Shown piece after piece: positions 343 through 36,900 of a stretch of 64,000 nt of DNA; within the stretch, counting starts at the first letter, position 1, and each line of letters begins with the position of its first letter. Made by a program: the position numbers and the translations under genes. A model generated the notes under the pieces. It was not told the DNA's origin. It did no database searches and saw only the letters and a list, made by a program, of their open reading frames with translations. The stretch is from a virus. The stretch lies in the IMG/VR virus record IMGVR_UViG_3300046170_000347, positions 1 through 64,000 of that record; one strand, given 5' to 3'.

Positions 343-343
343 A

Positions 344-553: not shown

Positions 554-555
554 AA

Positions 556-769: not shown

Positions 770-772
770 AAC

Positions 773-1816: not shown

Positions 1817-2073
1817 AACACAACTACTACATCTTGAGCTTTTATGACGTGATAAGTTTCTTTTTCTATTTCTATTTTATGACCAGCATGTCTGTCAAAA
1901 AATATTTTATCTTGTTGTTTTATACCAACTATATCATTACCAACTGAAACTATAGTGGCTTCAACGTATCTGATATCTTCTCTTTGGTTTTCTGCAAGAA
2001 GTAAACCACCTTTTGTCTTAGTAGTACCTTCTTTTGTTTTTTGTATAATTAAGTTTCTACCTATTGCCTTCAT
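1813..2073 (-). CDS. groES: Phage GroES-like co-chaperonin (variant 1)
   Basis: Co-chaperonin that would cap a GroEL ring. At 86 aa it is slightly shorter than the ~95-aa bacterial GroES. It has the conserved start (AIGRNLII), the mobile-loop region (KTKEGTTKTKGGLLLAEN), the DRHAGHKIEIEKETYHV strand corresponding to the GroES KYGGTEV/K..GEEYLI region, and a hydrophobic valine-rich end. Its ATG lies inside the end of the GroEL gene (17-bp overlap, DEGNR-stop), as in a coupled operon. The second, diverged version is at 63393-63656. Located in the virion module, it probably helps fold capsid or tail protein. Confidence 0.85.
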   Translation of the reverse strand: MKAIGRNLIIQKTKEGTTKTKGGLLLAENQREDIRYVEATIVSVGNDIVGIKQQDKIFFDRHAGHKIEIEKETYHVIKAQDVVVVL

Positions 2074-3609: not shown

Positions 3610-3642
3610 ATTTGCATTAGATTAAATTTAAGTGTATTGGTT

Positions 3643-3928
3643 TTATTCAAAGGTTTTAACTACCTTAGGTCCTTTCAAGTGATCTAGCTTTTTAGCGTAG
3701 TGTTCTACTGAGCTATCAATTGCTTGTTCTGCACCCTTCTATAGTTTCACGTCTTGTAACGTCGGCCCACTCATCTTCTAGAGTATGGTGTTCGGTTTGA
3801 TAAAAGCCATTTGGTAGTTGTACTATACGCCAGTTTTTCTTTTCGGCTACATGCTCCCATAATTTTCTGGTTTCATCGGATACTTGTGGTTGACTAGACC
3901 ACGAATTAGTCTGGTAATAAATTGTCAT
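3643..3928 (-). pseudogene. Conserved phage protein of ~94 aa, one-base frameshift
   Basis: The frame opens at 3928 (MTIYYQTNSWSSQPQ) and stops early at 3716 after RRETIEGC. Removing one G in the GGG near 3736 restores a tail ending GPKVVKTFE. The full protein resembles a small conserved family I recall from marine cyanophage genomes (YYQT...QPQVS, QLPNGFYQTE), whose function I do not know. It lies between GroEL and the fibre gene, all minus strand. Confidence 0.6.
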
Positions 3929-4015
3929 TGGTTTTGGTTTTAATTGTTATTATTGGTTTGCACTTCACCCGTGCCGGGTATATTTTATATACTCACTTGG
4001 TTTTAGTGATTTTTA

Positions 4016-5841
4016 CTAAGGCGTATACACAATGTGTACAACTCCGTCTGTATGATATAAACCATAAAGAGGAACACCTGCTGCTTTAGCTGCAGCTTCA
4101 TCTACGTAATTTCTATATTTTCCAACCCCTGGTAATATTACATTGCCTTCGTTAGAGCCTCCTGTTTTGTTTGTTATAACTAAAGCGTTTCTTCTGCCTG
4201 AATTACCACCTAGCGTAGAAGATCCCACTATAAAAGAGCAGCTTAAAGAGGCAAGACTATAATCAAAGTTTTGATCGTTATTTCTTCCAACTAATACGTA
4301 AGAACCACCATTTGTGTCAATAGTGTCTAAACCTCTACCTATTTGTATTTCATAGTCATCATCTACATTGTTTTGTGTCCCTATGGCTATAGCGTTTCTA
4401 ACACGCGTAGAGGAAGATCCAACAATATTGTTTTGGCCTATACCAAAAGATGTTCCTGCATTCACATCGCTGTAAACTAAGTTACCTGATCCAAAAGCCC
4501 CGCCTATAAGTCCGGTTACTGTGTTCCCTCTACCAAATATAAACGAGTCTTTATTACTAGTTGATCCTGATAGTATACCTATGTTGTTATTTTCTCCAGC
4601 TACAAAATTATTATTAGTGCTTATGGAATTACCATTACCTATCTGGTTATTCTGGCCAGCGGCTATAGTTGAATTACTTCCGTTTACAATTTCATTACGA
4701 GCACCAGATATAAAAGAATTTGATATGCCTCTAGCGTCATTATCATCACCACCTATTATAGATCTACTTATATTTCCTTGAGCAGCATTACCTCTACCTG
4801 TAATAAAGCTAGAATCTATGGTGGCAGTTATCCCAACAGGTACTCCTATATTTTGACCAGCAATTAAGCTATTTTTTAATAGTTCCAGTACTTGGCAAAG
4901 TGTTTGAAACTCCAACTACTAATGATCCAGTATTATTTGTACCGTTTATGGTATTTGTTTGACCAACAACCATCATTTTATCACCTATCAATGTATTGTT
5001 GAAACCTACAATAGCTAGATTTGATGAGTTTGCGTCACCTATAGTGTTGCTTTTTCCTACAACAAACGCAGATCCATCATATGCGGCGTCATAAGTATTT
5101 AACGGATTTGCAGAAGGATCTTCATAAGCAAAAATTTCTAACCAAGGAGTAATCCTTGTTGTGAAGTGAGTTGTATTAGGGTATATTTCTAAGCCTTCGT
5201 TTAAACCTGTAAAGCTTGTAGAAGCGCCTAATTCTATAGTTGCATTAGTTTGGCTTATTCTTTGTAAAAAGCTTTTACCTGCTATAGCTGTAGTATTTAC
5301 TGGTGTATATATTTCACTAGCAGTTTTAAATACAGTTACACTATCAGGCGTACCGGTTCCAGTTACAGTTCCGCCCCCGTCACTAATCCATTTTGTTTGT
5401 CCGTTGTCTGAACTTAATACTTGACCTGTCGAGCCAGCGTCACCGTTCTTGTCTAGTAAGGCGTCTGTCTGCAAGGTGCTAATACTAGCATAAGAAGATA
5501 CGTTTAAAGTAAACGTGTTAATCGCGCCATTGTTTATAATAACCTGGTTTGCAGAGCCAGGAGTAAATTTAACTATGGAATTAAATGTAAATGCATTAAC
5601 TCCGTCATAAGTAAGTAATGAATCACCGATAGTAGTGGATCCGGTAAAAATAGGTACTGTATTTAGCGTGCCAGATCCTGTAATACCGCTTGTTGATGAT
5701 ACAACATACGATGCTAAATTGTCTATTGTTAGGCTTTTTGTCCGATTTTTATTAGGAGCTAGTTGCTCTGAATCGGTTATAACTAAAAAGTCTCCACCCT
5801 GCTGGTGATGTTTTTTCTGGGTAACTATATATTATAGCCAT
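4016..5841 (-). pseudogene. Tail fibre / adhesin-like protein, ~607 aa, two frameshifts
   Basis: One gene is split into three open segments (5841 to about 5795, then to 4869, then to 4016). Dropping one base near 5797-5801 and one near 4869-4890 gives a continuous 608-codon frame. The N-terminus MAIIYSYPEKTSP parallels the start of the upstream 182-aa protein (MAIINSYPTITP), suggesting a shared attachment domain. From about residue 200 on it is built of repeated G-x-x-N-x-[IV] turns (GQNNIVG, GRGNTVTG, GENNNIG), typical of left-handed beta-roll or YadA-head-like trimeric adhesins. It ends with a small domain (PLYGLYHTDGVVHIVY). Likely the host-recognition fibre. Confidence 0.7.
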
Positions 5842-5842
5842 A

Positions 5843-6391
5843 TTAAGATAATATTTTGTATGTTATATATAAATCACATCCTCCATTAGCTGTACCACTG
5901 TTGGTTGGATCTGCATCGTCAGATGTTCCAAACTTTAAACTTGCATTTGTTCTCATACTTCCACTAGATATAGGCACTGCGTCAACACCCACTACCGGTG
6001 ATCCCCCTATTTGATTCATTATAGTTGTTGGGATTACAGCTTCATGTATTGAAGTTGAATTTCCTGGATCCCAGGATATTACCCCTGTACCTGTAAAAGT
6101 ATAATTTTGCCCTATAACTGTACCATTTGGTTGTATAGCAACAGAAATCATTTGTATTACTTTTCCGCTAGACGGTAAGGTAACTAAAGTTACGTTAGAT
6201 GTTCCAAGAGTTTGAATTTGAGCATCTGTTATAGATATTTTAGTTGTAACTATTTCTGGAGTGCTAGCTATAGCGTTTATACTGCCGATGCTTGCTGTTT
6301 TAGTTGGATTACCTTCTACCGACGTGTCTGATATAAGTACTAAATCACTTGACTTTGGCGTTATTGTGGGATAAGAATTAATTATTGCCAT
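5843..6391 (-). CDS. Virion-associated protein with shared MAIIxSYP N-terminus, 182 aa
   Basis: Complete ORF ending 1 bp before the fibre gene start. Residues 1-40 (MAIINSYPTITPKSSDLVLI...) form a motif shared with the next protein and seen in other marine phage tail proteins as I recall them. The rest is Ser/Thr/Gly-rich beta sequence without enzymatic motifs. Probably a fibre base, trimerisation or adapter protein. The start is fixed by the common N-terminus. Confidence 0.7.
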   Translation of the reverse strand: MAIINSYPTITPKSSDLVLISDTSVEGNPTKTASIGSINAIASTPEIVTTKISITDAQIQTLGTSNVTLVTLPSSGKVIQMISVAIQPNGTVIGQNYTFTGTGVISWDPGNSTSIHEAVIPTTIMNQIGGSPVVGVDAVPISSGSMRTNASLKFGTSDDADPTNSGTANGGCDLYITYKILS

Positions 6392-6397
6392 GTTTTT

Positions 6398-6648
6398 CTA
6401 AGTTTTTTCTAATCTGTTTGTCTCTGGGTTGTATTCATGAGTATGCACGCTTTCATCAGCTCTGTCAAATGCACGTTCTTCAGCTGCTCATGCTGTTTCT
6501 TTTATGGAATTTATCGCTAAGTGTACCGTCTAGGTTTAAAAATCCGTTTTTCTTCATCATTTTTAAAGCAAATGCGCGATCACCACCGAGTTGTTCTATT
6601 AATCTAGGGATAAGCTCCCCGGGGTCCTGTGAATCTAGTAGTTTCCAT
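6398..6648 (-). pseudogene. Small conserved phage protein (~82 aa) with two frameshifts
   Basis: No intact ORF is listed by length, but reading the minus strand gives LLDSQDPGELIPRLIEQLGG, then KMMKKNGFLNLDGTLSDK, then RNSM. A one-base shift near 6487-6491 leads to EERAFDRADESVHTHEYNP and ends at a TAG at 6398. Another one-base shift is needed just after ATG 6648. Segments of the type RNSMTAEERA...YNPxTN recur in small marine phage proteins. It is the first gene of the leftward late transcript. Confidence 0.55.
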
Positions 6649-6848
6649 ATTACTATATACTTACATATAAAGGCGAAAACTTACAAAGTGTGACAATAGG
6701 GTACTACTTATATACCTTAGAAGGCTAATGTCACTGTATAAAACTAGGGGCCATAGCAAATAGAGAGTATTGGTGTTGAATTTTACTATTTTTTTTTTAG
6801 TTTTTTTGTAAAATCGTTTAATTTAACCCAGCCCTACGTCCATATCCC

Positions 6849-6891
6849 TGATCATATCATATCATTTTAACATTTAATCTGATCATATCAT
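6849..6891. repeat. Two direct repeats TGATCATATCAT, 31 bp apart
   Basis: TGATCATATCAT occurs at 6849-6860 and 6880-6891. The start-to-start distance of 31 bp is about three helical turns, so both would face the same side of the DNA. Each contains the palindrome TGATCA. Candidate operator or replication-protein site in the divergent region. Confidence 0.6.
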
Positions 6892-6938
6892 AATCATATT
6901 TAGGCGTTTCATTATAACTAACAAATTCATTTTAGTAA

Positions 6939-6978
6939 TTACAAACAAAATACTTTATTAATTGGATAATAATATAAA
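6939..6978 (+). promoter_or_regulatory. Promoter-like repeat, copy 1
   Basis: TTACAAAC followed exactly 25 nt later (start to start) by GGATAAT, then an A/T-rich stretch and an ATG at 6986. Seven copies share this exact spacing, all rightward, most just before small ORFs. Confidence 0.7.
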
Positions 6979-6985
6979 CAAAACT

Positions 6986-7153
6986 ATGCTACTTATAAAT
7001 AAATTTCAAATAAAATTAACTTACAACTTATTAACAAATAATTATATTTCATTAACATTTATAAATAACAAACTTATAATTTTAAATAACAATTCAAATA
7101 TTGATATTCCAAAATTACTTACAAAAAATAATATTACTTACAAAATAATATAA
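6986..7153 (+). CDS. Asn/Ile-rich small early protein, 55 aa
   Basis: Starts MLLINKFQIKL after repeat copy 1; an upstream in-frame start inside the repeat is less likely. Extremely AT-rich codon use (Asn, Ile, Lys, Leu dominate). No motif or recognised family. First gene of the early cluster. Confidence 0.5.
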   Translation: MLLINKFQIKLTYNLLTNNYISLTFINNKLIILNNNSNIDIPKLLTKNNITYKII

Positions 7154-7156
7154 TAA

Positions 7157-7196
7157 TTACAAACAAAATTAATTCTTAATTGGATAATATAATAAA
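7157..7196 (+). promoter_or_regulatory. Promoter-like repeat, copy 2
   Basis: TTACAAAC at 7157 and GGATAAT at 7182, the same 25-nt offset. It precedes the 75-aa gene at 7229. Confidence 0.7.
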
Positions 7197-7228
7197 CTAA
7201 TAAATACTAATATAAATACATAATAACT

Positions 7229-7456
7229 ATGCAAACTTTAAATTCAAAAAGATTTGTTGTCAGAAAATCACTTATTGGCACAAATACAATTATCAATGTC
7301 ACTTTCAAAAATGGCAAAACTTACAAATATTCACATGATAAAGTATTCAATATCATGAAAAGTAAACTAGAAACTATGCCTTGTTTTCTAAAATACAAGT
7401 CATACACTTCAAGTACTTCAGTACCTGTAGTTCTAAGAGATAAAGAGGTAGTATAA
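7229..7456 (+). CDS. Small early protein, 75 aa
   Basis: MQTLNSKRFVVRKSLIG... A predicted beta-rich N-terminal half (TIINVTFKNGKTYKYSHDKV) looks like a small KTSC-type fold (short proteins with a strand-turn-strand and a Gly-Lys-x-Tyr turn), which is only a suggestion. It is followed by an A/T-rich leader and further small genes. Confidence 0.6.
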   Translation: MQTLNSKRFVVRKSLIGTNTIINVTFKNGKTYKYSHDKVFNIMKSKLETMPCFLKYKSYTSSTSVPVVLRDKEVV

Positions 7457-7550
7457 TACTACTTCTTTATTACTCACAGTTAAACTTGGAGTAGTACCTT
7501 TACTATAAATTAAACTAATAAATAATAATACACCTATAAATAATACTTAT

Positions 7551-7652
7551 ATGAGAAAATTCATTCACACTATAATCTTGAAAATCAGTAGCTTTAAACT
7601 CTCTGACTACATAGAAGTTGGCAGTGCACCTGATGAAACAACTTGGAGATAA
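7551..7652 (+). CDS. Tiny early ORF, 33 aa
   Basis: MRKFIHTIILKISSFKL... ends TTWR. Preceded by an A/T-rich leader with TAATAATA like its neighbours. Too short for family recognition. It fits the tight packing of the region but could be chance. Confidence 0.4.
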   Translation: MRKFIHTIILKISSFKLSDYIEVGSAPDETTWR

Positions 7653-12908: not shown

Positions 12909-13135
12909 CAGAAGAAGAAATGGAAAACATAGCAAACCTAGTGGTACAAAAGCTAGTTAAGCTACAACAAGACGGTGAAATATACCTAGGCTTAGCACAA
13001 GAAGAGGTATTGCTTGCAGAAATAGCAAGACTTACTACCCTATTGTCTATGTATGAAGAGCGTGAACAGTATGAAGCTGCCGCTATTATACACAATAAAA
13101 TTAAAAACTTAGAATCTAAACTTAATAACATATGA
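12905..13135 (+). CDS. Helical hypothetical protein, 76 aa
   Basis: MTEEEMENIANLVVQKLVKL..., two long amphipathic helices, the second with YEEREQYEAAAIIHNKIKNLE, which resembles UvrB/UvrC-motif-like alpha hairpins. A protein-protein contact domain is plausible. Overlaps the ligase start by 4 nt. Confidence 0.6.
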   Translation: MTEEEMENIANLVVQKLVKLQQDGEIYLGLAQEEVLLAEIARLTTLLSMYEEREQYEAAAIIHNKIKNLESKLNNI

Positions 13136-13959
13136 TAAAACCAATGCTTGCACACAAAGTCGGTAAAAAAGAAGTCGACTGGTCTGCAAAGAATTTTATA
13201 CAACCAAAGCTTGATGGCGTACGTTGTGTATTTACTAAGGTTGGTGCGTATTCTCGTACTGGCAAAGAATTTAAAAACGTAGCTCATCTTGAAGAAGATC
13301 TTAAAGACTTTTTCTGGAATAACCCTAATGCTATACTTGACGGCGAGCTGTATAATCACGATCTAAAGCATGATTTTGAAAAGATCATATCTTTGGTCAG
13401 AAAACAAAAACCAACTGAAGACGACAGGTCTGAGGCTGCTAATCTTGTACAATATCACGTGTATGATACTATATGGCAAGATGTAACATATGAAGACAGA
13501 TACAATTGGTTAAGAACTAACTTACCTATTGCAAAAACTATGACATTAATCGCTAATACTACAGTTGATTGTATGGCTGAAGCTAAAACAATGCACAGTC
13601 TACATCTAGCTCAAGGCTACGAAGGCTCTATGCTACGTACTAATGGCTTGTATGAGCGCAAACGATCTTACAACTTACAAAAGTTTAAAGACTTCCACGA
13701 TACGGAAGCAACTATTACAGGATATGAAGAAGGTAAAGGTAAGCGACAAGGCACGCTTGGCAAGTTTCTGATGACAGATGACGAAGGTATACAGTTCGGT
13801 TGTCCACCGGGCAAAGGCTATACTTACAAGGATCTGGCAAACATGCTACTTAACATTCATGACTACATTGGTCAGCGTGCTACCTTTACTTATTTTCAAC
13901 GAACACAAGCAGGTTCTTACAGACACCCGCTATTTAAAACACTTAGAAACTATGAGTAA
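13132..13959 (+). CDS. ATP-dependent DNA ligase
   Basis: Seals nicks during replication or recombination. The adenylation site is K26 in PKLDGVR (motif I, KxDG). Further motifs are DGEL near residue 70 (motif III-like), EGSML near 165 (motif IV) and LQKFKDF near 185 (motif V). A C-terminal OB-like region with GYEEGKGKRQGTLGKFL follows. At 275 aa it is smaller than T7 ligase (359 aa) and has no extra N-terminal domain. It starts 4 nt inside the preceding gene and overlaps the next ATG (TATGAGTAA). Confidence 0.9.
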   Translation: MIKPMLAHKVGKKEVDWSAKNFIQPKLDGVRCVFTKVGAYSRTGKEFKNVAHLEEDLKDFFWNNPNAILDGELYNHDLKHDFEKIISLVRKQKPTEDDRSEAANLVQYHVYDTIWQDVTYEDRYNWLRTNLPIAKTMTLIANTTVDCMAEAKTMHSLHLAQGYEGSMLRTNGLYERKRSYNLQKFKDFHDTEATITGYEEGKGKRQGTLGKFLMTDDEGIQFGCPPGKGYTYKDLANMLLNIHDYIGQRATFTYFQRTQAGSYRHPLFKTLRNYE

Positions 13960-17587: not shown

Positions 17588-19295
17588 ATGCAGACAACAG
17601 AGATCAATGGATTTGTGATTGATGAGTTCAATCAACATGGCCTTGAAGAAGGTAAGAAACAAGGTGTATGCCCGAAGTCTACCGTATGCAGGCAACCTAA
17701 AAATCATAAGAAGAAATGTGCTTCGTATGATTGGGAACGAGGTCTCGGTACTTGTCATAATTGTAACGAATCATTTCAACTACACACGTATAAACGTAAA
17801 GGCGAAACTGTAAAGGTTTATGAAAAACCTAAGTATGCAGGCATTGCGCCAAAGACTAAAGTAGTTGAGTGGTTTAAATCAAGAGGTATATCTCAGAAAA
17901 CCCTTACCGATTTAAAAGTCGGTGAGGGATCTGAATATATGCCGCAAACCGGTAAAACCGAGAACGCAATAAAGTTCAATTATTTTATAGGCGGTGAGTT
18001 AATAAACATTAAGTACCGCGATGGAAGAAAGAACTTTAAATTATTTAAAGGAGCTGAAAAAGTATTTTACAATATTGATAGCATTGTAGGTTATGACTCT
18101 TGTGTCATAGTTGAAGGCGAAATGGACGTGCTTGCATTACATGAAGCCGGAGTTACAAATGCTATATCTGTGCCAAACGGCGCTACGTTAAATACTAATA
18201 ATCTAGATTATCTTGACAACTGTATTGATTACTTTGAAGATAAAGAAAAGATTATACTAGCTGTAGATTCAGACGAAGCAGGTCAAGCATTACAAACAGA
18301 GCTTATACGTAGATTAGGATCTGAAGGTATGCTATTTAGCTACGTTTGATGATTGTAAAGATGCTAACGAATACCTACAGAAATATGGAAAACAAAAATT
18401 GGCAGAGCGTATTAAAGGCTCAAAACCAGTACCGCTCGAAAATGTCACGACATTTAGGGACATTGAAGATGAGGTCACGGACTTTGTTCGTAACGGGTTT
18501 AAACCTGGATATCAAGTTGGCTTGCAAAATTTTGATGATATCTTTTCGACTTATACTGGTCAGTTTATTACTGTTACTGGTATTCCGTCTAGCGGGAAGT
18601 CAGATTTTGTCGACCAAATGGTTGTTGGCTATAACAAAAACTATGGCTGGAAAACGGCGTTTGCTAGTCCTGAAAATATGCCGACTTACCTTCACGCACA
18701 CAAGCTAATGCGTAAGATATGGCAAGGTATGCCTACGTCTGCAGATATACACGGTGAAAAGTGGAATCAAGTAGCAGATCATTGTAATACAAACTTCTTT
18801 CATATCGACATGGAACGATATACATTAGAGTCTGTATTGCGTAAAGGCGCTGAGCTAGTTAAACGTAAAGGTATTAAATGTTTAGTTATTGATCCATTTA
18901 ATAAAGTACGTGACGTTGATTGTAAAACAGAAGACGTTAACAGGTACACAATGGAGTACTTAACTAAAATTGAAATGTTTGCTAAAAAGTTTGACGTTTT
19001 AGTTTTTGTTGTAGCGCATCCAACTAAAATGTATAAAGACAAAGATGGTAAAATTGAAGAACCTAACATGTATAATATCAAAGGCGGTGGTGAATGGTAT
19101 GACGCTAGTTATCATGGCTTATTGGTGCATAGGGATTATGAAGAAAAAACAGTCAAAGCTAAGGTGCTTAAGGTAAAGTTTCAAAACCTCGGTGAAAACG
19201 GAGCTGAAGCACATTTTAAGTGGGAACCTAAGTCTGGCTGCTTTATACCACATGAGCAAATAAATATTAATGATGATCCAATGCCGTGGGAATAA
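17588..19295 (+). pseudogene. T7 gp4-like primase-helicase, one frameshift
   Basis: Bifunctional replication protein. The N-terminal zinc site is CPKSTVC...KKCASYDW...CHNC (residues ~20-60). The TOPRIM domain has VIVEGEMDVLALHEAG and ILAVDSDEAGQAL. The DnaB/RecA helicase domain has Walker A TGIPSSGKSDF, then KCLVIDPFNKV (Walker B) and a VFVVAHPTKM sensor. The frame breaks near 18328; removing one base reads into CYLATFDDCKDANEYL and gives a 569-codon gene, the size of T7 gp4. If the break is real, the two halves would be separate primase and helicase. Confidence 0.85.
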
Positions 19296-20163
19296 ATGGC
19301 ATGGGGTAAAAAGATAAACATGGGTACATATAATCCAACATCAGTTGAGACTAAAGCTTACGCTTGGTGTATAAATAACAAAATATACATTGCACCAAAA
19401 GCTATCAGCGAGACACGTTGGTCTGTTGTTATAACAAACAACGGTGTAACACACGAAGATCCTAATCATTACATTAAAGGTTTAATATGGGAGAAGATTT
19501 ATGAATATTATAAATACTATTATGAAAAACACATTTCACAACGCAGATCAGCTTATGAAGCTTTGCTTGATGAGGTTATTATAAACGGTATAGAATTTGA
19601 TGGTACGCAGGCTATATTTAACTGCGGCTTTTATATGATAGACCCACAAGATAACCATATTAAAAACGTAGAACGTAACTGGAGCTTAGAGTATGCTGAA
19701 GCTGAATGGCAGTGGTATTTGTCTGGTGATCCTAGCATTGACAAGCTTGGTGAGTTGTATGGTAAGATACCACCAATATGGGAACGTATGGCCGACAGTG
19801 ATCGTAAAGTTAATAGCAACTACGGTTATCAATGGAAACGTAAAGCTCAAATAGACTACGTCTGTGCAAAGCTTAAATCAAATCCTAATACGCGTCATGC
19901 AGCAATTAGTATATATGATGGCAAAGGAATATGATAAATACAAGAAAGACACGCCTTGTACTTATGCAGTTCAGTTTACGATCATAGGCAAACAATTATG
20001 TATGTCTGTCTATATGCGTTCTAATGACATCTGGTATGGTTTCTGTAATGATCAGTATCAATTCTCATCATTGCAAAAAATGATTGCTTACAGACTGAAT
20101 TTAGAAATTGGTTGGTATTACCATCACGCGCACAACATGCATTTATATAACGATAAATTATAA
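19296..20163 (+). pseudogene. Thymidylate synthase / dCMP hydroxymethylase homologue, one frameshift
   Basis: Pyrimidine C5 transferase family. The first part has NYGYQWKRKAQIDYV and NPNTRHAAISIYD. The frame stops at 19934; removing one G near 19924 joins it to TPCTYAVQF (catalytic Cys), MSVYMRSNDIWYGF and YYHHAHNMHLYN, giving 288 aa. At the position of the dUMP-binding Asn of thymidylate synthase (FNIxxY), this protein has Asp (CNDQYQF), as in T4 dCMP hydroxymethylase, so dCMP may be the substrate. Alignment by eye only. Adjacent to MazG-like and ribonucleotide reductase genes. Confidence 0.75.
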
Positions 20164-20166
20164 CTT

Positions 20167-20958
20167 ATGTATTATTTGTACCACATACCTGGTAAAAAGA
20201 TCGGCGTTACACGTGATCTTAATAACAGGGTTACCCTTGTGCAAGGTTACAAGGAGAATGAGTATGAAGTTCTTGAACAGTCAGACGATATAGATTATAT
20301 ATCAGACCGTGAAATAGAACTTCAAAAGTCTTACGGCTATAAGGTCGATAGAAAACTATATAAACACTTATTTAAAAATATGAAGATAAACGCAACAGAG
20401 CAAACCTCAACGTTTCCTGTACCCGTCAATAAATTAAAAGGACGATTAGAGGACAGCATAGGTCTTACTTGGCAAACAGATCACGGCCAGTTTGAAATTA
20501 ACAAACGAACGATCTCATGGATAATGGCTAATGTAAAAGAGTCAATGTATAATCACAACAGGTGTTATGTATACAATAAAGCTTTTCATGAAGCATTTTT
20601 AGATACAAAGCATACGCCAAAGCCTAAGTATAATACTAGCGTAGATAAAATACCAAACCGTTTCGAGCTTATACGTATGTGGGCCAAAGACAGAGGTATT
20701 TATGATCAAGGTAATTCACATACTCAGTATGTTAAATTACAAGAAGAAGCTGGTGAGCTAGCTGCAGCATTGCTTAACAAGGATAAACCTGAAATACAAG
20801 ACGCTATTGGCGATATGATTGTCGTACTTACAAACTTAGCAGAGCTTGAAGGTTTTGTAGTTGAAGATTGTATCGACGCAGCTTATACTGAAATAGCTAA
20901 TCGAACAGGCGTAATGCATAACGGAACATTTGTTAAAACTGGTACATATGAAAATTAG
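20167..20958 (+). CDS. GIY-YIG-like N-domain fused to MazG-type NTP pyrophosphohydrolase
   Basis: Residues 1-65 (MYYLYHIPGKKIGVTRDLNNRV... REIELQKSYG) match the GIY-YIG nuclease layout: a YLY strand, KIGVTRDL.NR, and a Glu-bearing helix. Residues ~170-250 form a MazG domain with KLQEEAGELAAAL (EExxE metal site) and DAIGDMIVVLTNLAE (ExxD-like second pair). The middle is unassigned. The C-terminal domain would hydrolyse dNTPs or a modified nucleotide pool. Its stop overlaps the next MazG-like gene by 11 nt. Confidence 0.75.
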   Translation: MYYLYHIPGKKIGVTRDLNNRVTLVQGYKENEYEVLEQSDDIDYISDREIELQKSYGYKVDRKLYKHLFKNMKINATEQTSTFPVPVNKLKGRLEDSIGLTWQTDHGQFEINKRTISWIMANVKESMYNHNRCYVYNKAFHEAFLDTKHTPKPKYNTSVDKIPNRFELIRMWAKDRGIYDQGNSHTQYVKLQEEAGELAAALLNKDKPEIQDAIGDMIVVLTNLAELEGFVVEDCIDAAYTEIANRTGVMHNGTFVKTGTYEN

Positions 20959-21220
20959 AACCAAAGACGCAATAGTACAGTCTGTGCTTAAAAAAATGGA
21001 CGAACGAAGTTTAATCGGCCAGAAAAAGTACGGAGCTACAATGATGCAAGAGATCGAAGGTCAGGAGAAAGATCTTAATCGTTTCTTAATTGATGTACAA
21101 GAGGAACTAATGGACGCATTGCTTTACATTGAAGCTGCTAAACGATGTTTGACTGATGAGATCGAAGAGGCTATGATAAAACGTTTTGATATAGAAGTTC
21201 ATGATGAAACGACCTTATAA
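20948..21220 (+). CDS. MazG-like all-alpha NTP pyrophosphohydrolase family protein, 90 aa
   Basis: Start MKIRTKDAIVQSVLKKMD at 20948. The signature is GQKKYGATM, then DLNRFLIDVQEELMDALLYIEAA, an EExxD arrangement found in short phage all-alpha NTPases. It lies right behind the MazG fusion, giving two nucleotide-cleaning enzymes in a row. Confidence 0.7.
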   Translation: MKIRTKDAIVQSVLKKMDERSLIGQKKYGATMMQEIEGQEKDLNRFLIDVQEELMDALLYIEAAKRCLTDEIEEAMIKRFDIEVHDETTL

Positions 21221-21784: not shown

Positions 21785-21914
21785 AGGCTGGAGTTTATCA
21801 GTCGGTACATATCCAGGCGTATTGTTTGGAATAAGATCATACGATGAAGATAATCAGGTAACGCATGTAGCTTACCTACCTTTTATAGACATAGCATTAG
21901 AAATATATAAGTAA
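21765..21914 (+). CDS. Small conserved phage protein, 49 aa
   Basis: MASKQNKGWSLSVGTYPGV... beta-rich; the SVGTYPGVLFGIRSY segment resembles short proteins I recall near phage ribonucleotide reductase genes. Its TAATG stop overlaps the nrdB start. Confidence 0.55.
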   Translation: MASKQNKGWSLSVGTYPGVLFGIRSYDEDNQVTHVAYLPFIDIALEIYK

Positions 21915-22882
21915 TGGGGTTATTTAAAGAACGTATAGCTTATAAACCTTTTGAGTACCCAGAGTATTACACAGAAGGTTGGTTAAAACAAGCTCAAGCA
22001 TTTTGGTTGCATACTGAAATACCAATGAGCGGTGATGTTAAAGATTGGAACGAAAAATTAAATGACAAAGAAAAGAACTTGGTCGGAAACATATTACTCG
22101 GTTTCGCCCAGACAGAATGTGCAGTCTCGGACTATTGGACGCAGAAAGTTGTCGGATGGTTTCCGAAGCACGAGATACAGCAAATGGCTATGATGTTTGG
22201 TTCGCAAGAAACAATACACGCAGTAGCTTATAGCTATTTAAACGAAACATTAGGACTAGAAGATTATGAAGCATTTTTACATGAGCCGGCAACGGCTGAA
22301 AGGTTTGACAACTTGGTTGCGTACGACGGATCCAATGCTGTGGGTATTGGCAAGTCTCTTGCTGTGTTTAGTGCTTTTGCGGAAGGCGTTAGCCTCTATT
22401 CTGCTTTTGCTGTACTTTATTCTTTTCAGTTAAGAAATTTACTGAAAGGTATTGGTCAGCAAATGAAGTGGTCAGTAAGAGATGAAAGCCTGCACAGTAA
22501 AATGGGTTGCAAGCTTTTCCGCGATATGTGTAGCGAAAACAATCAATTATTGAATTTATGTCAAGAAGATATAGTAAAAGCTGCAGAAACCATGGTAGAC
22601 CTAGAAACTAAGTATATTAACAAAATGTTTGAGATGGGTGATATCGAAGGTATATCAGCTAATGATCTTACGCATTTTATAAAAAAGAGAGCAAATGAAA
22701 AACTTGTGGAGCTTGGCTACAAAGACTTTGCAGAACATTTCACGTATGACAAAGCGGCAGCAGCTAATCTTGATTGGTTCTATCATCTTACCGGCGGGGT
22801 CACTCATACTGATTTTTTCGCTATACGGCCGACAGACTATAGCAAGGCTAATGAAGGAGAGGACTTTGAAGACATTTGGTAA
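21914..22882 (+). CDS. nrdB: Class I ribonucleotide reductase, beta subunit
   Basis: Radical-generating subunit that makes dNDPs with NrdA. Metal ligands are visible as TEC (first Glu), QETIHAVAY (Glu-x-x-His plus the radical Tyr four residues after His), FAEGVSLYSAF (Glu) and RDESLHSKMG (Glu-x-x-His). The C-terminal tail EDFEDIW is the peptide that docks in NrdA. At 322 aa it is within the family range. The first ligand appears to be Glu rather than E. coli Asp. Confidence 0.92.
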   Translation: MGLFKERIAYKPFEYPEYYTEGWLKQAQAFWLHTEIPMSGDVKDWNEKLNDKEKNLVGNILLGFAQTECAVSDYWTQKVVGWFPKHEIQQMAMMFGSQETIHAVAYSYLNETLGLEDYEAFLHEPATAERFDNLVAYDGSNAVGIGKSLAVFSAFAEGVSLYSAFAVLYSFQLRNLLKGIGQQMKWSVRDESLHSKMGCKLFRDMCSENNQLLNLCQEDIVKAAETMVDLETKYINKMFEMGDIEGISANDLTHFIKKRANEKLVELGYKDFAEHFTYDKAAAANLDWFYHLTGGVTHTDFFAIRPTDYSKANEGEDFEDIW

Positions 22883-23386: not shown

Positions 23387-25110
23387 ATGTGGAACAATGA
23401 ATGGAAAAAAGGAGAAGATTACCCTAAGTGGGGTGATACAGACGTATACAAGAAAACTATATCAGGCGGTTACTTACTTGAAGATGAAACGCCTCGTGAT
23501 GCGTACATGCGAGTTGCTAAAACAGGTTGCGCGTAGACTTTACAAACCTGAGATGGCCGGAGCGTTCTTTGATTATATTTGGAATGGTTGGTTGTGTCTG
23601 GCTAGTCCTGTGTTATCAAATACAGGGACTGATCGCGGTTTACCTATATCTTGCTTTGGCATTGATGTTGCAGACTCGATACAGGACATAGGGCATAAAA
23701 ATTTAGAGATGATGCTACTCGCTAAGCACGGCGGTGGAGTTGGCATTGGTATTAATATGATTAGACCCGCCGGCGCTAAAATTACAGGCAATGGAACAAG
23801 TGATGGCGTTGTGCCGTTTTGTAAAATATACGATTCAACAATACTTGCCACTAATCAAGGATCTGTCCGACGAGGAGCTGCATCAGTTAATATCAACATT
23901 GATCACCCCGATTTCGATGAGTGGCTCGAAATACGTGAACCCAAAGGAGACGTCAATCGTCAATCGCTTAACCTGCATCAGTGCGCTGTTGTCGGTGATA
24001 AGTTTATGCGACGAATTGAGCAAGGAGATAGAGAAGCTAGAAAACGTTGGGGTAAATTACTTCAAAAGCGAAAAGCTACTGGAGAACCTTATATCTTATT
24101 TAAGGGAAATACAAATAAGAATAACCCCAGATCATATAAAGACAACGGACTGAAAGTCCATATGACTAACATATGCTCTGAAATTACATTACATACAGAT
24201 GAGAACCACAGCTTTGTTTGTTGTTTGTCATCATTAAATTTAGCTAAATATGAAGAGTGGAAAGGTACAAACCTTATTTATGATGCGATATGGTTCTTGG
24301 ATGGAGTCATGGAAGAGTTTATCCAAAGAGCTAAAGGCTTACGAGGTTTCGAGAACGCGGTTAGATCGGCTACAAAAGGCAGAGCCTTGGGGTTGGGAGT
24401 ACTTGGTTGGCACACGTACTTGCAAGAAAAAAGTATACCGTTCGAGGGCTTACTTGCGCAGTTTGAAACTAGGAAGATTTTTAGTCAGATTAAAATTGAA
24501 TCTGAAAGAGCTAGTATGGCACTTGCAGAAACTTATGGCGAACCTTTGTGGTGTGCTGGAACTGGTATGCGCAATACTCATCTACGTGCTATTGCACCTA
24601 CTGTTAGCAACAGCAAACTTAGTGGCAATGTGTCGCCAGGCATTGAGCCGTGGGCTGCAAATGTTTTTACCGAGCAAAGCGCGAAAGGCACGTTCATAAG
24701 AAAAAATCCTACATTATTAAAACTATTACGAAAACTTAAAATAAATACAAATGAAACTTGGAGCAAGATTATGGCAGATGGTGGTAGTATTCAAGGTTTA
24801 TCTGAGCTTGACGGGGTTGTGGTTGGATCTCATGACGTACCGGCTAAAGACGTTTTTAAAACGTTTAAAGAGATAAATCAATTAGAACTAGTAAATCAAG
24901 CCTGGTATACGACAGCAGTATATAGATCAGTCTGTTAGTTTAAACCTAGCATTTCCTAGTATAGCTACGCCAAAGTGGATTAATCAGGTGCATATGTCAG
25001 CATGGAAGAAAGGTATTAAAACCTTGTACTATACTAGAACTGAATCAGTACTACGCGGTGATATAGCACAACAAGCTATGAGTGAAGATTGTATTGCCTG
25101 TGACGGATAA
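23387..25110 (+). pseudogene. nrdA: Class I ribonucleotide reductase, alpha subunit, two frameshifts
   Basis: Catalytic subunit. The true start is ATG 23387 (MWNNEWKKGEDYPKW), out of frame with the long central ORF. One extra base near 23532 separates ...DAYMRVAKT from ARRLYKPEMAGAFF. A second near 24903 separates NQA from RQQYIDQSVSLNLAFPS. With both removed the frame is 574 codons. Visible are the active-site region VLSNTGTDRGLPISCFG, the NICSEITL / CCLSSLNL pair and the C-terminal redox Cys pair (CIAC). The N-terminal ATP cone is absent, as in small phage enzymes. Confidence 0.88.
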
Positions 25111-27975: not shown

Positions 27976-30900
27976 TTAATTATTCATTAGTTCTAAAATT
28001 TTTTCAACTCTATTTTTTTCATATCTAAGATCTCTTATTTCTTTTTTAGTAAGTCCAAACTTAGTTAACGTTTTTACTTGATCTGGTTTGTTTTCTGCCT
28101 TAATAGAATCAAACTGTCTTCTTAGTTTTTGTTCAGCGGTCTCTGTTGCGGCTTTAGGTTTAAGTGGAGGTTTAGGTTGAGGTGTAGGTTTTGTTTCAGT
28201 TGTGGGTTTTGTTTTTGTTTCCTCAGACTCTTCTGTTGGGCGCATTGGTATCCCGCTTTGTAGTTCAATTATTTTTTTAACTCTAGCATCTTCTTTACCT
28301 AACGCTTTAATTTGTTTCTTAGTAAGACCTAAATCTAAAAGCATATCTATTTGCTCTTGAGTTTTAGTATCTTTCTTCATTGTATCAAATTTCTTTTGCT
28401 CTATCTCTGCGGGCGTTGGATCTGCTACAGCATCCCAACCTCCATAATAAGGAAGACCAATATCATATGTTCCATAACCTGCTGCTAAAGATATTTTTTG
28501 CCACTCAGCTGTTTGCTCGCTTAGTATACCTCTTATGTTATTAGTTTTCTTAACAACACGATCTAAAGGTATATTAGTAAAAGCTGTAAATATCTGAGCA
28601 CCTGCTAAGTAAGCTGGGTTGTCTAGGCTAAAACCTTTTTCTTTCATTTCCTTAGCGTTCCAGCTAAAACTTTTTAAACCACCTACAATTTTTCTATACT
28701 TAGAACTAATAGCCGGTGAAAAGCTTAGCGCTTCAATTGCGGCTTTTTCATACTCAGGTCTTTTCTTACCAGACTCTTCAATTATTTTTAGTACTGTATT
28801 TTTAGCAGCAACCATAGCGTTACCTGCAATACCTAAACCTTTTAACTGAGAGTCAATCATGCCGTTAGCAACTCTAGTTATTTTCTTTTCGTTTCTAGCT
28901 TTTATCTTAGGATCTTTTTCGTCTTCATCGCTGCCAAAACCAATAGCAAATAAGGCTTGCTGTAGTGAATTAAATATTAAATTTTGTATAGCACCATAAT
29001 AAGCTATTTTAGATACATTTGTTTTCCAATCACCTCTGCCGTTTATAAGATCTTGAGCGGCTCTTTTTTGTATTCTAACATACTGCATCGGCGTGTTAGC
29101 CCAGTTAAGTATAACACGACCAGCACCAGACGCTTGCTGCATACTAATCTTAGAAGCGTCACTAGACTGTTGGCTTTCTTCTGCAACATCTTTAAAGTCT
29201 GCAAAAGCTTGTTGTTCAGCAAGTTCTGTGCTCATGCCTTCTTTGACATACTTTTTAATTCTGTTTCTATAAAAAGTAGAACCACCAGAAGCTATGGCAA
29301 AACTATCCGCGTATCTAGTAAGAACAAAACCTTTACTAAGTAAATAAGATATAGCTGCGTTTACTTTATTCTTAGAATCTTTTACAGCATCTGCTATTTC
29401 AGATTCACTTACATTTATTTTAAGTCCATTACGACGTTGCACTAAGTAATCAGAATTCATTAGTTTCATAAAGTCTCCCCAAAACTGTTTCTGATTTGCA
29501 AACGCTTTGCCTGCGGCTATAGGATTATTATCACCCCAATTTAAAAAGTTTACAGCAGATATAGTTTGAAGCAGTGCAGATCTAGTATTTAAAAACATTA
29601 CAGCACCAACAGAGTTGTTAGTCCAGTCTAATACCTTATTGGTTATTTCACTACCACCAATTGGTCTGTTACTGCCAGACTTCATTCTGCGAAGAGTATC
29701 TTCTAAAGCTTTACGCCAGCGAGTACCATATGCAGCCTCCATTTTATTTAAGTTTTCAGGTGAAAATATAATATCTACATTTTCTCTAAAAGTCTTTTGA
29801 TATTCTGCTCTGTTTACCTTGTTTATACCACCTATAATATCTGTAGTTAAATTACCAGCTAGCCAGTCTTTACCAGGCTCTGGATACATTTTACCTTTTT
29901 GACTTACTATAAGTTGATCGGCAAACGTTTGAAGCTCAGCGCTATCAGTAACAAACTTATTTAATTTCGCTGCGTCTGCTTTTGATAGACCAGGTATTGA
30001 CATACCTTGTTTGGTCCACATATAAGTTCTAAGAGCATGCTGATATGTAAACTTACCTACACCAGTTTCTTTTTTAAGTGTAGTGGGTATAGTCTTATAC
30101 ATAGACTTTAGCGCCATGAAATCATTGGCAGCAGATATCTTAGCTTGTATAGCTGAGTCTTCTGCTCTATTGTAAGGATCAATAAGATTGTTTTTAAGGA
30201 ATTCAAAATGCGCCTCACCTTGCTTGCCTTTTCCTATCATTTTATACAATAAACCCTTAAAGTCTTCAGCTGATGAGGCCATTGTAAGCCAATCAAACCT
30301 ACCTTTGTTTTGACCTAATGTTTTAGCTTTAGCAGCAGAGAAAGTTTTATAAGCTTCAATACCACTACTAGCTTCTATCATTTCGTTAGTTATAGTATTA
30401 AAAGTTTTAGCATTACTAAATTTAGCTTGTTGCACCTTGCCTTTAACATCAGCTTGATCTAATATTTCTTTGACAGCTTCTACATTTTTAAGCGCATCAT
30501 CAGCAAAATAAAAATCATTATAACCTTCAGATACTTTATCCATGATCCAGCGGCCTTTGGCACTAGCCTTGCCATCTGCTAAGCCAGTTATATTTTTTAA
30601 AGGTATATCAATACCTAGAGCTTTCATAAACTCTTTTATAGGCCCAGCAGCATCCTGAGGTCTAGCTGTTAATATAAATAAATCTTCTGTGCCTCTTTTT
30701 TCTGCTATTCTTTTCATCACATCAAACAAAGGTCCTTTTTTTCCATCAACTACTTTGCTAAAATCACTAAAATCAAACTTAGCACCTTCTTGTTCTAGCT
30801 GAGCTGATTTTTCTGCAAATTCTGCGGCATCTATTTTAAAAGTTTTGCCACTTGGAAAATCTTTTAAAACTCTTGCTTGCTGCTCTTCGTTTAAATTTTC

Positions 30901-33900
30901 AAAGTTTTGTTTAGAACTAGGCTTGTTTTCAAATTCTTTTTTAAATATTCTTCTAGCGGCAATATCAAGCATTTCTATATCAATTGGTCGACCTGGCACT
31001 TCAACTAAAATTTTACTTTTCGTAATAGCCGCGGTGTAATCAAAATCAAATACTCTAATTTTCCTTTCTTTCTTAGGCACAGGCTTACCGTTCTCAATAT
31101 TTAAAGATCTTGATAATTCTAACGCTGCATCAGCTCCTCTTAAATTCTCAACAACAGCTTCATTTGTAGCAGCTTTATCAAATCTAAAAGAACTAGAAGC
31201 TAGGTCATTCATTTTTTCTGCACTCTTAGCTTTTGGATCTACAACTCTTTGTAGCTCTTGATAGTCTTTTTTAGCTCTTTCTCTTGTTATTTCTCCTGTT
31301 AAAACTTTTGTTATTAATTCATTAACAACTTTAGAGTTTTCTAATATCTCAAAAGGTGTTGTTACTTTTTTAGATTTACCTACAAAAAACTCACCGATGG
31401 ATTTTTGTGTTTCAGTAAACGCATAAGCAAAAGGATCAATAGTATTTTCAATAGTATACCTAATAAGAGACGCTGTGCCTTGTGGTAAAAAATCTAACTT
31501 ACCTTCTCTTACGGCTTTAAGAACTTTATCATAGTATTCAGGAGGTAAATTTTTATCAAGAAAAACAGATAAAGCTTTATCGTCGTTATATCTTAAAGCT
31601 CCTTGACCATATATAGCTTTTATATCTTTAAACTCTTCTTTGACAGTTCCTCTTTTGGCTGCTTCTAAAAGCATTAATCCTATTTTATTAACAGGAGCCA
31701 TATGCTCTTCTTTTACTTTAACAGAAACTGCCTTGCCAGTTAAAGGATTTATAGGATAAAAAACAAGTGCTGCTCCAAATCTATTTAAATGACCTTGACC
31801 TTTTGCGCTGTCTCTTAAAAACTGTTCAAATATTCTATACTTGCCTTTACCTTCTTTTGTTTTTAGAAACTCTTGTACTTTTAAATAAAAATTTTCTATT
31901 TCATCTAATCTAAACTTATTGTTTCTAAGAATACTACCATCTCTTAAACCTTTATTGACTTTACCAGCTAAAAACATTTCAGTGGCGGCATATGTAAATC
32001 TAGTTGCTTTATTATCTCTATTGCTTTTTCCAAACAAGCTTTCAAAATTTGGAATATCTCTAAAAGTTAAATCTCTTCCACCTGTCATGCTTTGCTCTAC
32101 ATATCTTTTACCTTCAGGGTAGAATTCAAAAAATGATTTAAAATCTTTTACAGCCGCTTTGTACTCAGGAGATTTTGTATCTATAATAGTATAACCTTTT
32201 AATGCACCTGTTTTTTTAGACTTTTCAAAAATTTTATCTCTAACAAAAGATGGTTGAGTATATTTTAACTCTTCGCGCTCTTTACCTGTTGTAATCTTAG
32301 GCACTTTTTTATCTTCACTAAACTTAGCGCCTAGTTTTGCTCTTTGACCTGCATCACCTTTTAAGTATTCTAAAGCATTGTTTTTAAAATAAGAGGCTAA
32401 TACTACTTTTAGTGGTTGAGATCTTCTATATAAAGGCACTGGCCTACCGTTTTCAAGTGGATTAAACTCTATAGACTTACCGTCATAACCTTCTACTGTT
32501 ATATTTTTACCTGAAATTATATCTCTAAGTGTTTTTAAAGATCCAGGTTTTAAATCGCCTTTGTCATTTAATAAAGCTTTACCTACTTTTGTTTGCTTAA
32601 ATCCAGGTGTATTAATTCTAGAGTGTATAGCTTGTAGATTGTCTAATATAAATTGCTTAGCTCTAGTCGCTGCAGCTTTTTCACCAGCAGGAAAATTCCT
32701 ATTAGGTATCATTAAAGCTTTTATACCAGCCTCAGACTCAATACCGAGCATCTTAGCATAAAACTCTGCTAATGATCTAGGTGTTTTTAAGTCTTTATAT
32801 TTATTAATATCTACATCTTTAAAGCTGTCTAGTACTTGAGTTTTTAAAGCCTCTTGTATTGCTTGCTCAGGTGTCTGGCCTTCTTTTACTTCAATGCCTA
32901 GGTTTTCTACAAACTCAGGTTTCATTTTAACTTCAGAGGGCAATCGCTTAGTTGCAGTTACTTTTTCTTCTTCTTTAATTGTTTCCTCAACAGCGACATC
33001 TTTTAGACCAACTAAATCATCTACAGAAGTATCAAACTCTTTACCTAAATTTCTATCAGCTATTTCTATATATCTTTTAAATCCAGTTTTAGTAGAAAAA
33101 CTATTATTTAAAAACAAAGATAATTCTTTTACTTTTTCACCCTTTTCAACTTTAGCAGCATAGTCATTAATAACGTCTAGCATACCTCTTTTGCCTGTCA
33201 TTATTTCGTCGACAAGTAATTCCTCATCATATCGTGGTCGGTTTTTAAATCTTCTTGCCAAAGATGTAGCTGTAGGTCTTAACAATTCTAGTATTTCAAA
33301 ACTTGCGTCTTTACCTTTTTCAGCAAATAATCTATTAACGGTGTTTGAATCTTTTTTAGCTAAACTAAACCTTCCTGATGGAGTAGCTAATTCTAAGTTT
33401 TCTGCAGTTGTTTCAACTTCAACTTTTTTAGGTGTTTCTTTTATTTCAACCCTGCCAAGATCTTGGGCTTTGAGCATTTCAAAAATACCTTTACCTGTTT
33501 CAGGATTTACTTCTATATTGGGTAAGAAGCTTTTAAACGCAGGTACTAAACCAGCTAAGCCTTCACCGAAACTTCTGCTAAATTCTATTTCACCTCTTTT
33601 AATAAGCTCAGCTAGTACAGTTATGTTTTCTTCGTACCATTTTTCTTTAGATTGACCTACGTCATATCTAGAGGCTAACTCTTCGTCTAATACTTGTTTT
33701 TGTCTTGGTGTAAGTTTACCTAATACTCCATCGATCATTTCTATACCTTCAGGTGTTACATTGCCTTCAGCGTCTTTAAAAGAATCTTTTAATATTGAGT
33801 GAGGTATTTCATGAGTAACTGGTGTAAAGTTTCTTTGTTGTAAAGCAAACTCCCTATTAATAACTTTATTACCGTCTTTATCTGTAAAAGCTATTTTACC

Positions 33901-36900
33901 TTTGACATCTTCTTTTTTAAATCCAGACTCATCATAGCGTTTTTGAAACTCTTCTGGTGTTCTAGCTTCAACTACTTTACCTTCAGAAGGATCTGCTTGC
34001 TTCACATCTTTCTCATAAGCCGTAATAGCAGCACCTTGTATTTCTGACTGTATGTTATTATACAGTTCACCGCCTTTTATATACTTACTTAGCTCTTGCT
34101 CGGCGCTTTTTATAGCTTCTTTGTTTTCAAGAAGTTCAGATTCTGATAAATTAGTTTTATCTAAATTTTTTAATCTATAAATTCTTTCGTTAAGCTCTTG
34201 TTTTTTTAATAAAAACTCTCTAGCGTTTTGTCTAGCAGTTGTTCCTTTTGGTGATACAAACTCTACAGGATTCAAGGGTTGTAGACCATACGGTGTTAAC
34301 ATAAAAGACTTACCATTTAGTTGAGCTTCTATTAAAGATTCGTTTAATATTAAATTTTGTAAATAAGAATCATTGACAGAATTTTTTTGTATACCTAATC
34401 TTTTATAAAGCATGCCCACGCCATCTAGCCCATAGTAAGACAATACTTCTCCATCTCTATCGTTTAGTTTTTCTCCGTTTTTTATTTTTTGAGATACTAA
34501 ATAAAACTCAGATTCTCTTGGAGCATTGCCTGCATTTTTCTCTGCTTGAATTAGTTCATAAGCAGCATTGACAGCTATTTGAGTATCAACTACTCTGTAA
34601 TCTTCTTTTAACCTTTTAAATTCAGCGTCAGCCTCTTGTTTAGTTATCTTACCTTCTCTTTTTCTTTTTAGTAGATCGTTTACTTTATTTTCAAAAGCGT
34701 CATTAAGTTCTGCCTGCGCATTTTCTTGATCAACTTCAAATCCTTCTTTTTCTAATAATCCACCTTCTTTTACTTTCACGCCTAATCTTTGAGCAGATTC
34801 TTTAGCTTCTAAATCTAATCTACCGCTAGTTTTAGCATTTATAACATCGCTTTTAAATTCTTTGCCAATGCTGCGCATGTTAGGAACAGACTTAGTTAAA
34901 GTCCCAGCTATAATCATTTTTATAGTTTCTACAGCTTGAGTATGCAATGAAACAGTTAAATTACCTTGCTCGTCAAATAAACCTCCGGCAGCTACAGCGC
35001 TTCCAAACTGATATGTTGTTGCACCACCAAATGCACTACCAACAGATCTTGAAACTCTTCTATAAGTGTTAGGAGCGTATTTTGTTAAAGCATTTACAAC
35101 TGGAGAGAAGATTCTACCTATTTTAGATTTACCTAAAAATTTAACAAAAGGATCATACATAGCATGACCTACGGCTAATGAAGATCCAAAACCTGCTGAA
35201 CTAGGTAAAGATTCTAAGTCAAAATCTCCTGTTCTATATTGGCCAACTATGCTACCACCAGTAAAAGTTACGGCTTGACCAAGAACTGAGTTTACTGTTT
35301 TAAAAGCAGGTAGCGCGTATGGTATTTTTGAAAATCTTTTACTTTGAGTAGCTAGTTTATTTGCCCATTTTTGTGTTTTACCTACAATATTACCACTACC
35401 TCTAGTGAATAAATATACATCACCCATCCAAGCTAATAGATCTGGTGCAGTAGCACCAATTTCTTGACCTGTGTTTTCTGGTGATATAAAACCACCTCCC
35501 GGTATTTGTATAGCTAAAGAGTTATCTAGAGCTTCTTTGCTTGGAGTAAAACCATTAGTTTGCATCCAATTTAAATAATTATCTTTAACTTGTCTATCTG
35601 TAGGAGCCGCGTCACCGCCTAATAAATTAACCGTAGCAGCGTAAAATTCATCAGTAAAACCTCCTTGTTCTGTTGTTAAAGGATCTCTATCTAGCTGAAA
35701 AGCTCTGTTTACTATTTTATAATTTTCTACAGCGTCATTAAAAGCTTTTATAAGAGGATGACCATCTTCGTCGTTTATAGCTCTAACGTCTAATTTTTCT
35801 AAATAACCAGGTAGTCTACCATTTAAAGCTATTTCCTCTACTAAGCTAGATATATCTTTAGTCCATTCAAATCCTTTTTGACCTTTATAACCTCCATTTT
35901 TACTAAAAAAACTAGGATCATTTGCGGCGCCACTGTTTGCTTTATCCCAGTTATATATTTCTTGAGCTAATCCAACAATTTTAAAATAATCATTATTTAG
36001 TTTTTGCTTTAAAACATCTTTTTCTGTTGTATCCGCTAATTTTTTAGCTTTTTGAAAAAGTTCTATTTCAGATTCTTGTACTTTATCGAGGTCTATGTTT
36101 TTTATCTCATCTCCAAAAAATAATCTTTCGCCATAATTTTCTTTAGAAGCCTCTTTGTCTTGCTCTTCCGGGCTTAATTCTAAAAACTTTAATTCATTTT
36201 TAGTAAGAAACTGCTTGCCATCTTTTAAAACATCGTCAATACTTACGTCATTAAATTGTAAATTAGCTTGAGATCCTAAGTAATCAGTTCTATAATTTTG
36301 CACACTAGGAATACTTATAGCCTTAGATCTATCGTTTCTTTCTTTTTCAGCTTCTCTAGTACTTTTAATTGTAGGAAAATAACTACTTCCTACAGAGTTA
36401 CCGTATTCATCTAAAGACGCTTGTATAGCAAGTTCATTGTTTGTTTCCCATACTTGATTGCCTAGTTGATTGTTTAATTCTACAGGATCATATTTTTGAA
36501 TTAAAACCTCATCTAAAACAGTAGTAGTTCCTTCCATTGGCATAGAACTATAATTTATTATCTCAGCGTTAGGATTTGATTTAACATAATCAGCAACCGT
36601 TGAAACGTTTTCAAAGCCAGGTTGATTACTGTCAATCATTTGTTGAATTTGATTAAAAGTAAATTCTTTTGAAGATCCTTCTTTAAACCTTGTTCCTTTT
36701 GGAGGTTGAATTAAAACTCTAGTATCATATTTAATTTCTCCACTTTTTATTGCTTTAATGCCTTCTTCCTGCGATTGTTTTTTAGATTCAAAATCTTTTT
36801 TAAGTTTATTGTATTCTGCCTTTTTATTTTCGTAATCTTCTAAAGATAAACCGCCTCTAAACAAGTCATCAGATATGTTTCTACCTATGTCATCTAAGCT

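Follow-up and report, generated by a model that had tools for sequence, protein, structure and literature searches.

What does a phage thymidylate synthase homologue do when it carries an aspartate at the position where E. coli thymidylate synthase (ThyA) reads dUMP with an asparagine? The question is raised by a gene in a window of 64,000 nucleotides, made up of bases 1-64000 of a 69,399-base IMG/VR virus record. An earlier note on this DNA proposed that the enzyme may hydroxymethylate or methylate dCMP and that two MazG-like neighbours could clear dCTP.

Before the active site can be read, the gene itself has to be put together. Its place in the thymidylate synthase family, as first suspected, is borne out by PF00303 matches on both fragments of a gene that is split over two frames, 19296-19934 and the 3' part of 19864-20163 (32.1 and 46 bits for the window fragments; curated cut-off 24.3). 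The catalytic PC, RSND and HHAHNMHLY blocks are likewise all there. Together with the PF00303 matches, alignment to intact relatives places the dCMP 5-hydroxymethylase-like gene at 19522-20163 on the plus strand, beginning with ATG 19522. A repair of one extra base had been thought sufficient, but relative to six relatives (L003, L004, L006, L010, L013 and L027) there are actually two one-base indels, both on the plus strand. One is a deletion near 19549, in the region 19546-19552, with the frame change put at 19551 by tblastn. The other is an insertion at 19923-19927, where the window reads AAAGG and the relatives AAAG, and from which the premature TGA at 19932-19934 arises. Through the deletion, a separate plus-strand ORF that lies upstream (19296-19551 in the relative alignments, 84 codons in the nearest relatives, no family match) loses its stop and becomes fused to the enzyme frame. 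The previously given start at 19296 thus belongs to another gene, which runs to about 19548, and the end at 20163 stands.

Read as written, the window copy would give no active enzyme, owing to its frameshifts. A decaying pseudogene in a phage with plain cytosine would account for the two frameshifts, but this reading is highly improbable. The intact protein of the relative L003, encoded at 5602-6240 of that genome and 213 amino acids long with a full-length PF00303 match (3.4e-26, 92.4 bits), is 95-99% identical to the window protein, and residues in the window fragments remain fully conserved. In the first set of relatives, every locus of sufficient length shows the enzyme as a single open frame. 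The primase-helicase (17588-19295) and nrdA (23387-25107) genes of the record are also frame-shifted versus intact relatives (tblastn against relative G001), and the start of the contig is an imperfect copy of its end, as would fit a poor assembly. As neighbouring essential genes are broken too and the relatives' ORFs are intact, the breaks in the enzyme gene are probably sequencing or assembly errors, a far likelier origin on sequence grounds than a pseudogene. The shifts in the primase-helicase and nrdA also mean that ORF calls of this record need care.

The base-reading position falls at 20050-20052 on the plus strand, where GAT encodes aspartate. Three alignments agree on this placement, as the earlier note had it: phmmer aligns the residue with Asp179 of T4 gp42 and Asp186 of MilA, and two MAFFT alignments, which include ThyA, T4 gp42, dUMP hydroxymethylases and others, set it against ThyA Asn177. 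The placement is independent of gaps, since an RSNDxxxGFxND motif is common to the window enzyme and T4 gp42. The same alignments locate the catalytic cysteine (ThyA Cys146) and a following threonine (ThyA His147) at 19957-19962, and a further aspartate (T4 gp42 Asp145; ThyA Leu143), three residues N-terminal of the cysteine, at 19948-19950, both on the plus strand. Catalytic and signature residues are all invariant in 75 close relatives, including Asp143 (ThyA numbering) and both the Ser and the Tyr of a Ser-x-Tyr motif (75/75 each). Conservation of the Asp in this first set is partly built in, as the peptide pattern used to find the relatives contained Asp177. A second IMG/VR scan took an alignment of divergent members as query and returned at least 80 loci; its patterns held Ser-x-Tyr but not Asp143, Thr147 or Asp177, and among the matches listed these three residues occur in 80 of 80 distant loci. 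Positions 147 and 177 are those most associated with modified cytosine in the MetaGPA study (PMC8670742).

These residues bear directly on whether the enzyme is an ordinary dUMP thymidylate synthase or a dUMP hydroxymethylase, a reading that accords with PF00303 membership but is barely credible otherwise. Throughout the family, position 177 is Asp rather than Asn and position 147 is Thr rather than His or Asn, and the proteins stop no more than a few residues past the HLY block, without the C-terminal tail of ThyA. The window family therefore does not match the ThyA set of Leu143, His147, Asn177 and tail. The dUMP hydroxymethylases of SP82G and Vi01 have Asp143 as here, but Asn147 and Asn177; Thr147 is instead common to the window family, T4 gp42 and MilA. 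Asp177 was also seen in proteins of Roseobacter phage RDJL Phi 1 (L199, 417-1304) and Agathobaculum phage AB434P2 (L209, 354-1016), whose annotations as thymidylate synthase or dUMP hydroxymethylase may for that reason be wrong.

Asp177 by itself is, as a sequence feature, an indicator of cytosine only and not of which reaction takes place. The enzyme could be a dCMP 5-methylase that forms 5-methyl-dCMP, similar to the reported phage Xp12 enzyme or to a thymidylate synthase in which, according to work cited in PMC8670742, the single change of Asn to Asp at 177 is enough to create a dCMP methylase. The window family also retains ThyA Trp80, which would fit such an enzyme. Hydroxymethylation has two published markers (Park et al., PMC6400193), Ser-x-Tyr and an Asp or Glu three positions ahead of the catalytic Cys; both are invariant here (the acid as Asp), whereas ThyA has Leu143. 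Also absent is the tail, which in ThyA closes off the site of hydride transfer. Methylation is thus very unlikely, and hydroxymethylation of dCMP is favoured by these sequence signatures; the original alternative of hydroxymethylation or methylation is narrowed accordingly by Asp143, Ser-x-Tyr and the missing tail. As for the nucleotide, MilA, the Streptomyces CMP 5-hydroxymethylase (5jnh, 5b6d), shares the equivalents of Asp143, Thr147 and Asp177 but selects CMP through Lys133' and Ala176 (PMC5175136). The close relatives have Arg and Ser at these positions (75/75 each), as in deoxyribonucleotide enzymes, pointing to dCMP rather than CMP as the likely substrate.

Comparisons across the whole protein lead in the same direction. 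The best PDB matches by phmmer are MilA (2e-19) and T4 dCMP hydroxymethylase (5e-16), with ThyA-type synthases scoring lower (best 1.7e-13; E. coli ThyA about 1e-12). The L003 enzyme, modelled with AlphaFold2 (pLDDT 92), has MilA as its first structural match, so that MilA leads by both sequence and predicted fold, and T4 gp42 lies within the top ten, above most ThyA entries. Fold alone cannot separate the subfamilies, as ThyA entries follow closely. In a tree of 46 proteins, the short phage enzymes form a single starred branch (98/94) that adjoins T4 gp42 (89/85), and the window clade is separate from ThyA, the dUMP hydroxymethylases and the 5-hydroxy-dCMP synthases. The phylogeny thus joins the window clade to T4 gp42 with moderate support; the sisterhood is moderate evidence only, owing to several long branches.

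The tree is also of use in weighing a third cytosine reaction, that of the recently described flavin-dependent 5-hydroxy-dCMP synthases (RB69 ORF048c, PMC13390438; HY126 AfhB), by which the phage DNA would contain 5-hydroxycytosine. These enzymes have Asp177 and Thr147 in common with the window family, and 9iqc and 9iqu are among the structural neighbours. By sequence, however, 9iqc and 9iqu score only about 2e-8 (against 5e-16 for T4 dCMP hydroxymethylase), and the synthases occupy a starred tree branch of their own. RB69 ORF048c and AB-Navy71 have Glu143, Val80, Asn169, Val173 and Phe209, where the window family, like T4 gp42, has Asp143, Trp80, Asp169, Gly173 and Tyr209. Nor did Pfam scans of two intact relatives reveal a sugar-modification gene to go with a 5-hydroxycytosine route, and the latter is extremely unlikely. 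A missing catalytic Glu58 in RB69 was considered as a further difference and was dropped, as a second alignment places Glu there.

T4 gp42 is therefore the natural point of comparison for a dCMP hydroxymethylase. Both have the equivalents of Asp145, Cys148, Thr149, Asp179, Ser94-x-Tyr96, RSND and Glu60 (T4 numbering), both are without the ThyA-type C-terminal tail, and they are sister branches in the tree. In contrast to the 246 amino acids of T4 gp42, members of the window family have about 213, with about 36% identity to T4-type enzymes over the matched part. The ThyA Arg127 equivalent, the second phosphate-binding Arg of T4, is replaced by His or Gln in the close clade. The setting also differs from T4 in that the genome is of podovirus type, the enzyme has a fixed GIY-YIG/MazG neighbour, and the relatives scanned yielded no glucosyltransferase gene. 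The closest isolate enzyme is the "deoxycytidylate 5-hydroxymethyltransferase" of Bacteroides phage BF486P2 (WAX06796), which is 44% identical, carries the same signatures and belongs to the same clade; no isolate has a close copy. BF486P2 differs in its Bacteroides host, its other gene context and the presence of a second, divergent paralogue (WAX06791), and no match to the MazG neighbour was found in the stretch of it examined.

This neighbour, at 20167-20958 on the plus strand, encodes a MazG-domain nucleotide pyrophosphatase with a GIY-YIG-like N-terminal domain; in L003 its counterpart occupies 6249-7046. Its matches to PF03819 (3e-05) and PF01503 (6.5e-05) are both over the cut-off, the EExxE and DxxxD-type acids of the MazG domain are invariant or nearly so, and the top Foldseek match is the MazG structure 1vmg (E 5e-3). 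The MazG gene adjoins the enzyme in 84 of 85 close loci and, among the matches listed, in 77 of 80 distant ones. It lies upstream of the enzyme in some loci and downstream in others, and in distant loci the pairing is often kept where all other neighbours differ. A variable order combined with constant pairing is good evidence of shared function, and the protein is probably the dCTPase partner of the enzyme, with removal of dCTP as the obvious candidate for that function. Only one of the two MazG-like enzymes described earlier could be upheld. The second candidate, a small plus-strand ORF at 20948-21220, is conserved in 80 of 85 loci but finds no support as a MazG, having no Pfam match and an hhalign probability of 1% against the alignment of the MazG neighbour. 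It has an invariant RS..GqkKYG...EElMDA.LY pattern and matches no known family.

Members of the window clade share the fusion of GIY-YIG-like and MazG domains; more distant genomes often have a MazG domain by itself (about 100 amino acids) or one joined to a different N-terminal region. Within the N-terminal domain, Arg21 and Glu49 are invariant (71/71), and the predicted order of strands and helices fits the beta-beta-alpha-beta-alpha arrangement of GIY-YIG. Pfam matches of this domain are weak (best about 0.002, in 8 of 31 members) and are to PF13455 and PF10544, both of which we take to be GIY-YIG relatives. The analogy suggests a role parallel to that of T4 endonuclease II. In T4, this GIY-YIG enzyme breaks down the DNA of the host and leaves the modified phage DNA intact (PMC1564403). 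T4 keeps the two activities apart, with endonuclease II as the nuclease and gp56 as the dCTPase. It is conceivable, if on balance doubtful, that the window clade combines them in one protein, a GIY-YIG nuclease against unmodified host DNA joined to a MazG dCTPase, beside a dCMP hydroxymethylase, in a compact "disguise and destroy" cassette of two genes, which in Bacteroidota podophages would rely on the host polymerase. The fusion in any case offers a testable idea for the joint removal of host DNA and dCTP.

Further genes on the plus strand also concern nucleotides and DNA. As the earlier note stated, nrdA and nrdB are nearby: the ribonucleotide reductase small subunit gene nrdB lies at 21914-22882 (PF00268, 1.8e-57) and the large subunit gene nrdA at 23387-25107 (PF02867, 2.9e-74), the latter with two frame changes in its tblastn frames. 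An ATP-dependent DNA ligase (PF01068 and PF14743) is encoded at 13132-13959. Pfam scans of two intact relatives, mostly of proteins up to about 900-1000 amino acids, gave no glycosyltransferase, carbamoyltransferase, dNMP kinase or dCMP deaminase, and no DNA polymerase of families A or B was found in eight records. These absences are provisional, as records may be incomplete and the scans mostly omitted large proteins. With neither a dNMP kinase nor a family A or B polymerase, use of hm-dCTP would need host kinases and a host polymerase.

Taken as a whole, the best explanation is a dCMP 5-hydroxymethylase, removal of dCTP by MazG and hydroxymethylcytosine in the phage DNA, which we regard as very probable from sequence, the structural model and analogy with T4. 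A possible dCMP-modifying enzyme, as initially suggested, is favoured by sequence, structure prediction, phylogeny and gene neighbourhood. From the sequence features, predicted fold, phylogenetic position and conserved neighbour established here, we infer the reaction, the dCTP specificity of MazG and the presence of hydroxymethylcytosine in the virion. By analogy with T4 gp42, the catalytic Cys would attack C6 of dCMP while Asp177 would orient the cytosine and protonate its N3. A one-carbon unit would then pass to C5 from methylene-tetrahydrofolate, and an Asp-activated water, not hydride, would complete the reaction to give 5-hydroxymethyl-dCMP. The adjacent MazG pyrophosphatase probably converts dCTP to dCMP, which would both supply the substrate and deprive replication of plain dCTP. 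Kinases, probably those of the host, would convert hm-dCMP to hm-dCTP, and the host replicative polymerase would place it in phage DNA, which would in this form be protected from host nucleases. If the enzyme hydroxymethylates cytosine building blocks as in T4, as is probable, the phage DNA is probably chemically disguised. Counting against this explanation are the dependence on host enzymes, the frameshifted window copy, His or Gln in place of the second phosphate-binding Arg, and the moderate support and long branches around T4 gp42.

A link to experimentally modified cytosine is provided by MetaGPA (eLife 2021, PMC8670742), in which thymidylate synthase with Asp177, PRA-PH and a PF01068/PF14743 ligase were tied to contigs with such modification. 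All of these domains are found in the window phage, and one of the MetaGPA samples was coastal. Some of the MetaGPA contigs are further marked by a carbamoyltransferase and a deaminase, neither of which came up when two intact relatives were scanned with Pfam. Outside the T4 group, the near-invariant pair of enzyme and MazG may be an easy way to recognise cytosine-modified phages from their genomes.

One IMG/VR scan gave 510 confirmed relatives of the C-terminal half of the enzyme. The enzyme type is already known; what has been found is a large uncultured branch of it without earlier characterisation. If the proposed explanation is true, modified cytosine would be present in widespread uncultured marine podophages of about 60-70 kb (these 510 loci), with consequences for escape from restriction and CRISPR and a possible bias in the sequencing of such viromes. 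A Bacteroidota host is likely, judged from relatives of the portal protein and from MAG labels. The portal protein is closest to those of an uncultured podovirus and of Flavobacterium, Cellulophaga, Tenacibaculum and Maribacter phages. Close MAG-contig matches are labelled, for example, Flavobacteriaceae, Saprospiraceae and Sphingobacteriaceae, and also Aliivibrio, Halieaceae and Verrucomicrobiales, labels which can be binning errors. Elemovirus elemoE and MW202828, which have related portal proteins, lack a PF00303 gene, which means that the enzyme is no general trait of that lineage.

Elsewhere in the record, a minus-strand gene at 27976-37170 encodes a protein of 3064 residues without a Pfam or PHROGs match. 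The start of the record (window 1-7650) repeats its end (G000 61592-69399), with 87% identity over 1-4018 and 94% over 6272-7647, as might result from a circular overlap left untrimmed or from the joining of two strains. GroES and GroEL genes lie at G000 63393-65190, partly beyond the window, and are also present in Elemovirus elemoE and MW202828. The groEL gene is broken in the first copy of the repeat (2057-3609) and intact in the second (63637-65190).
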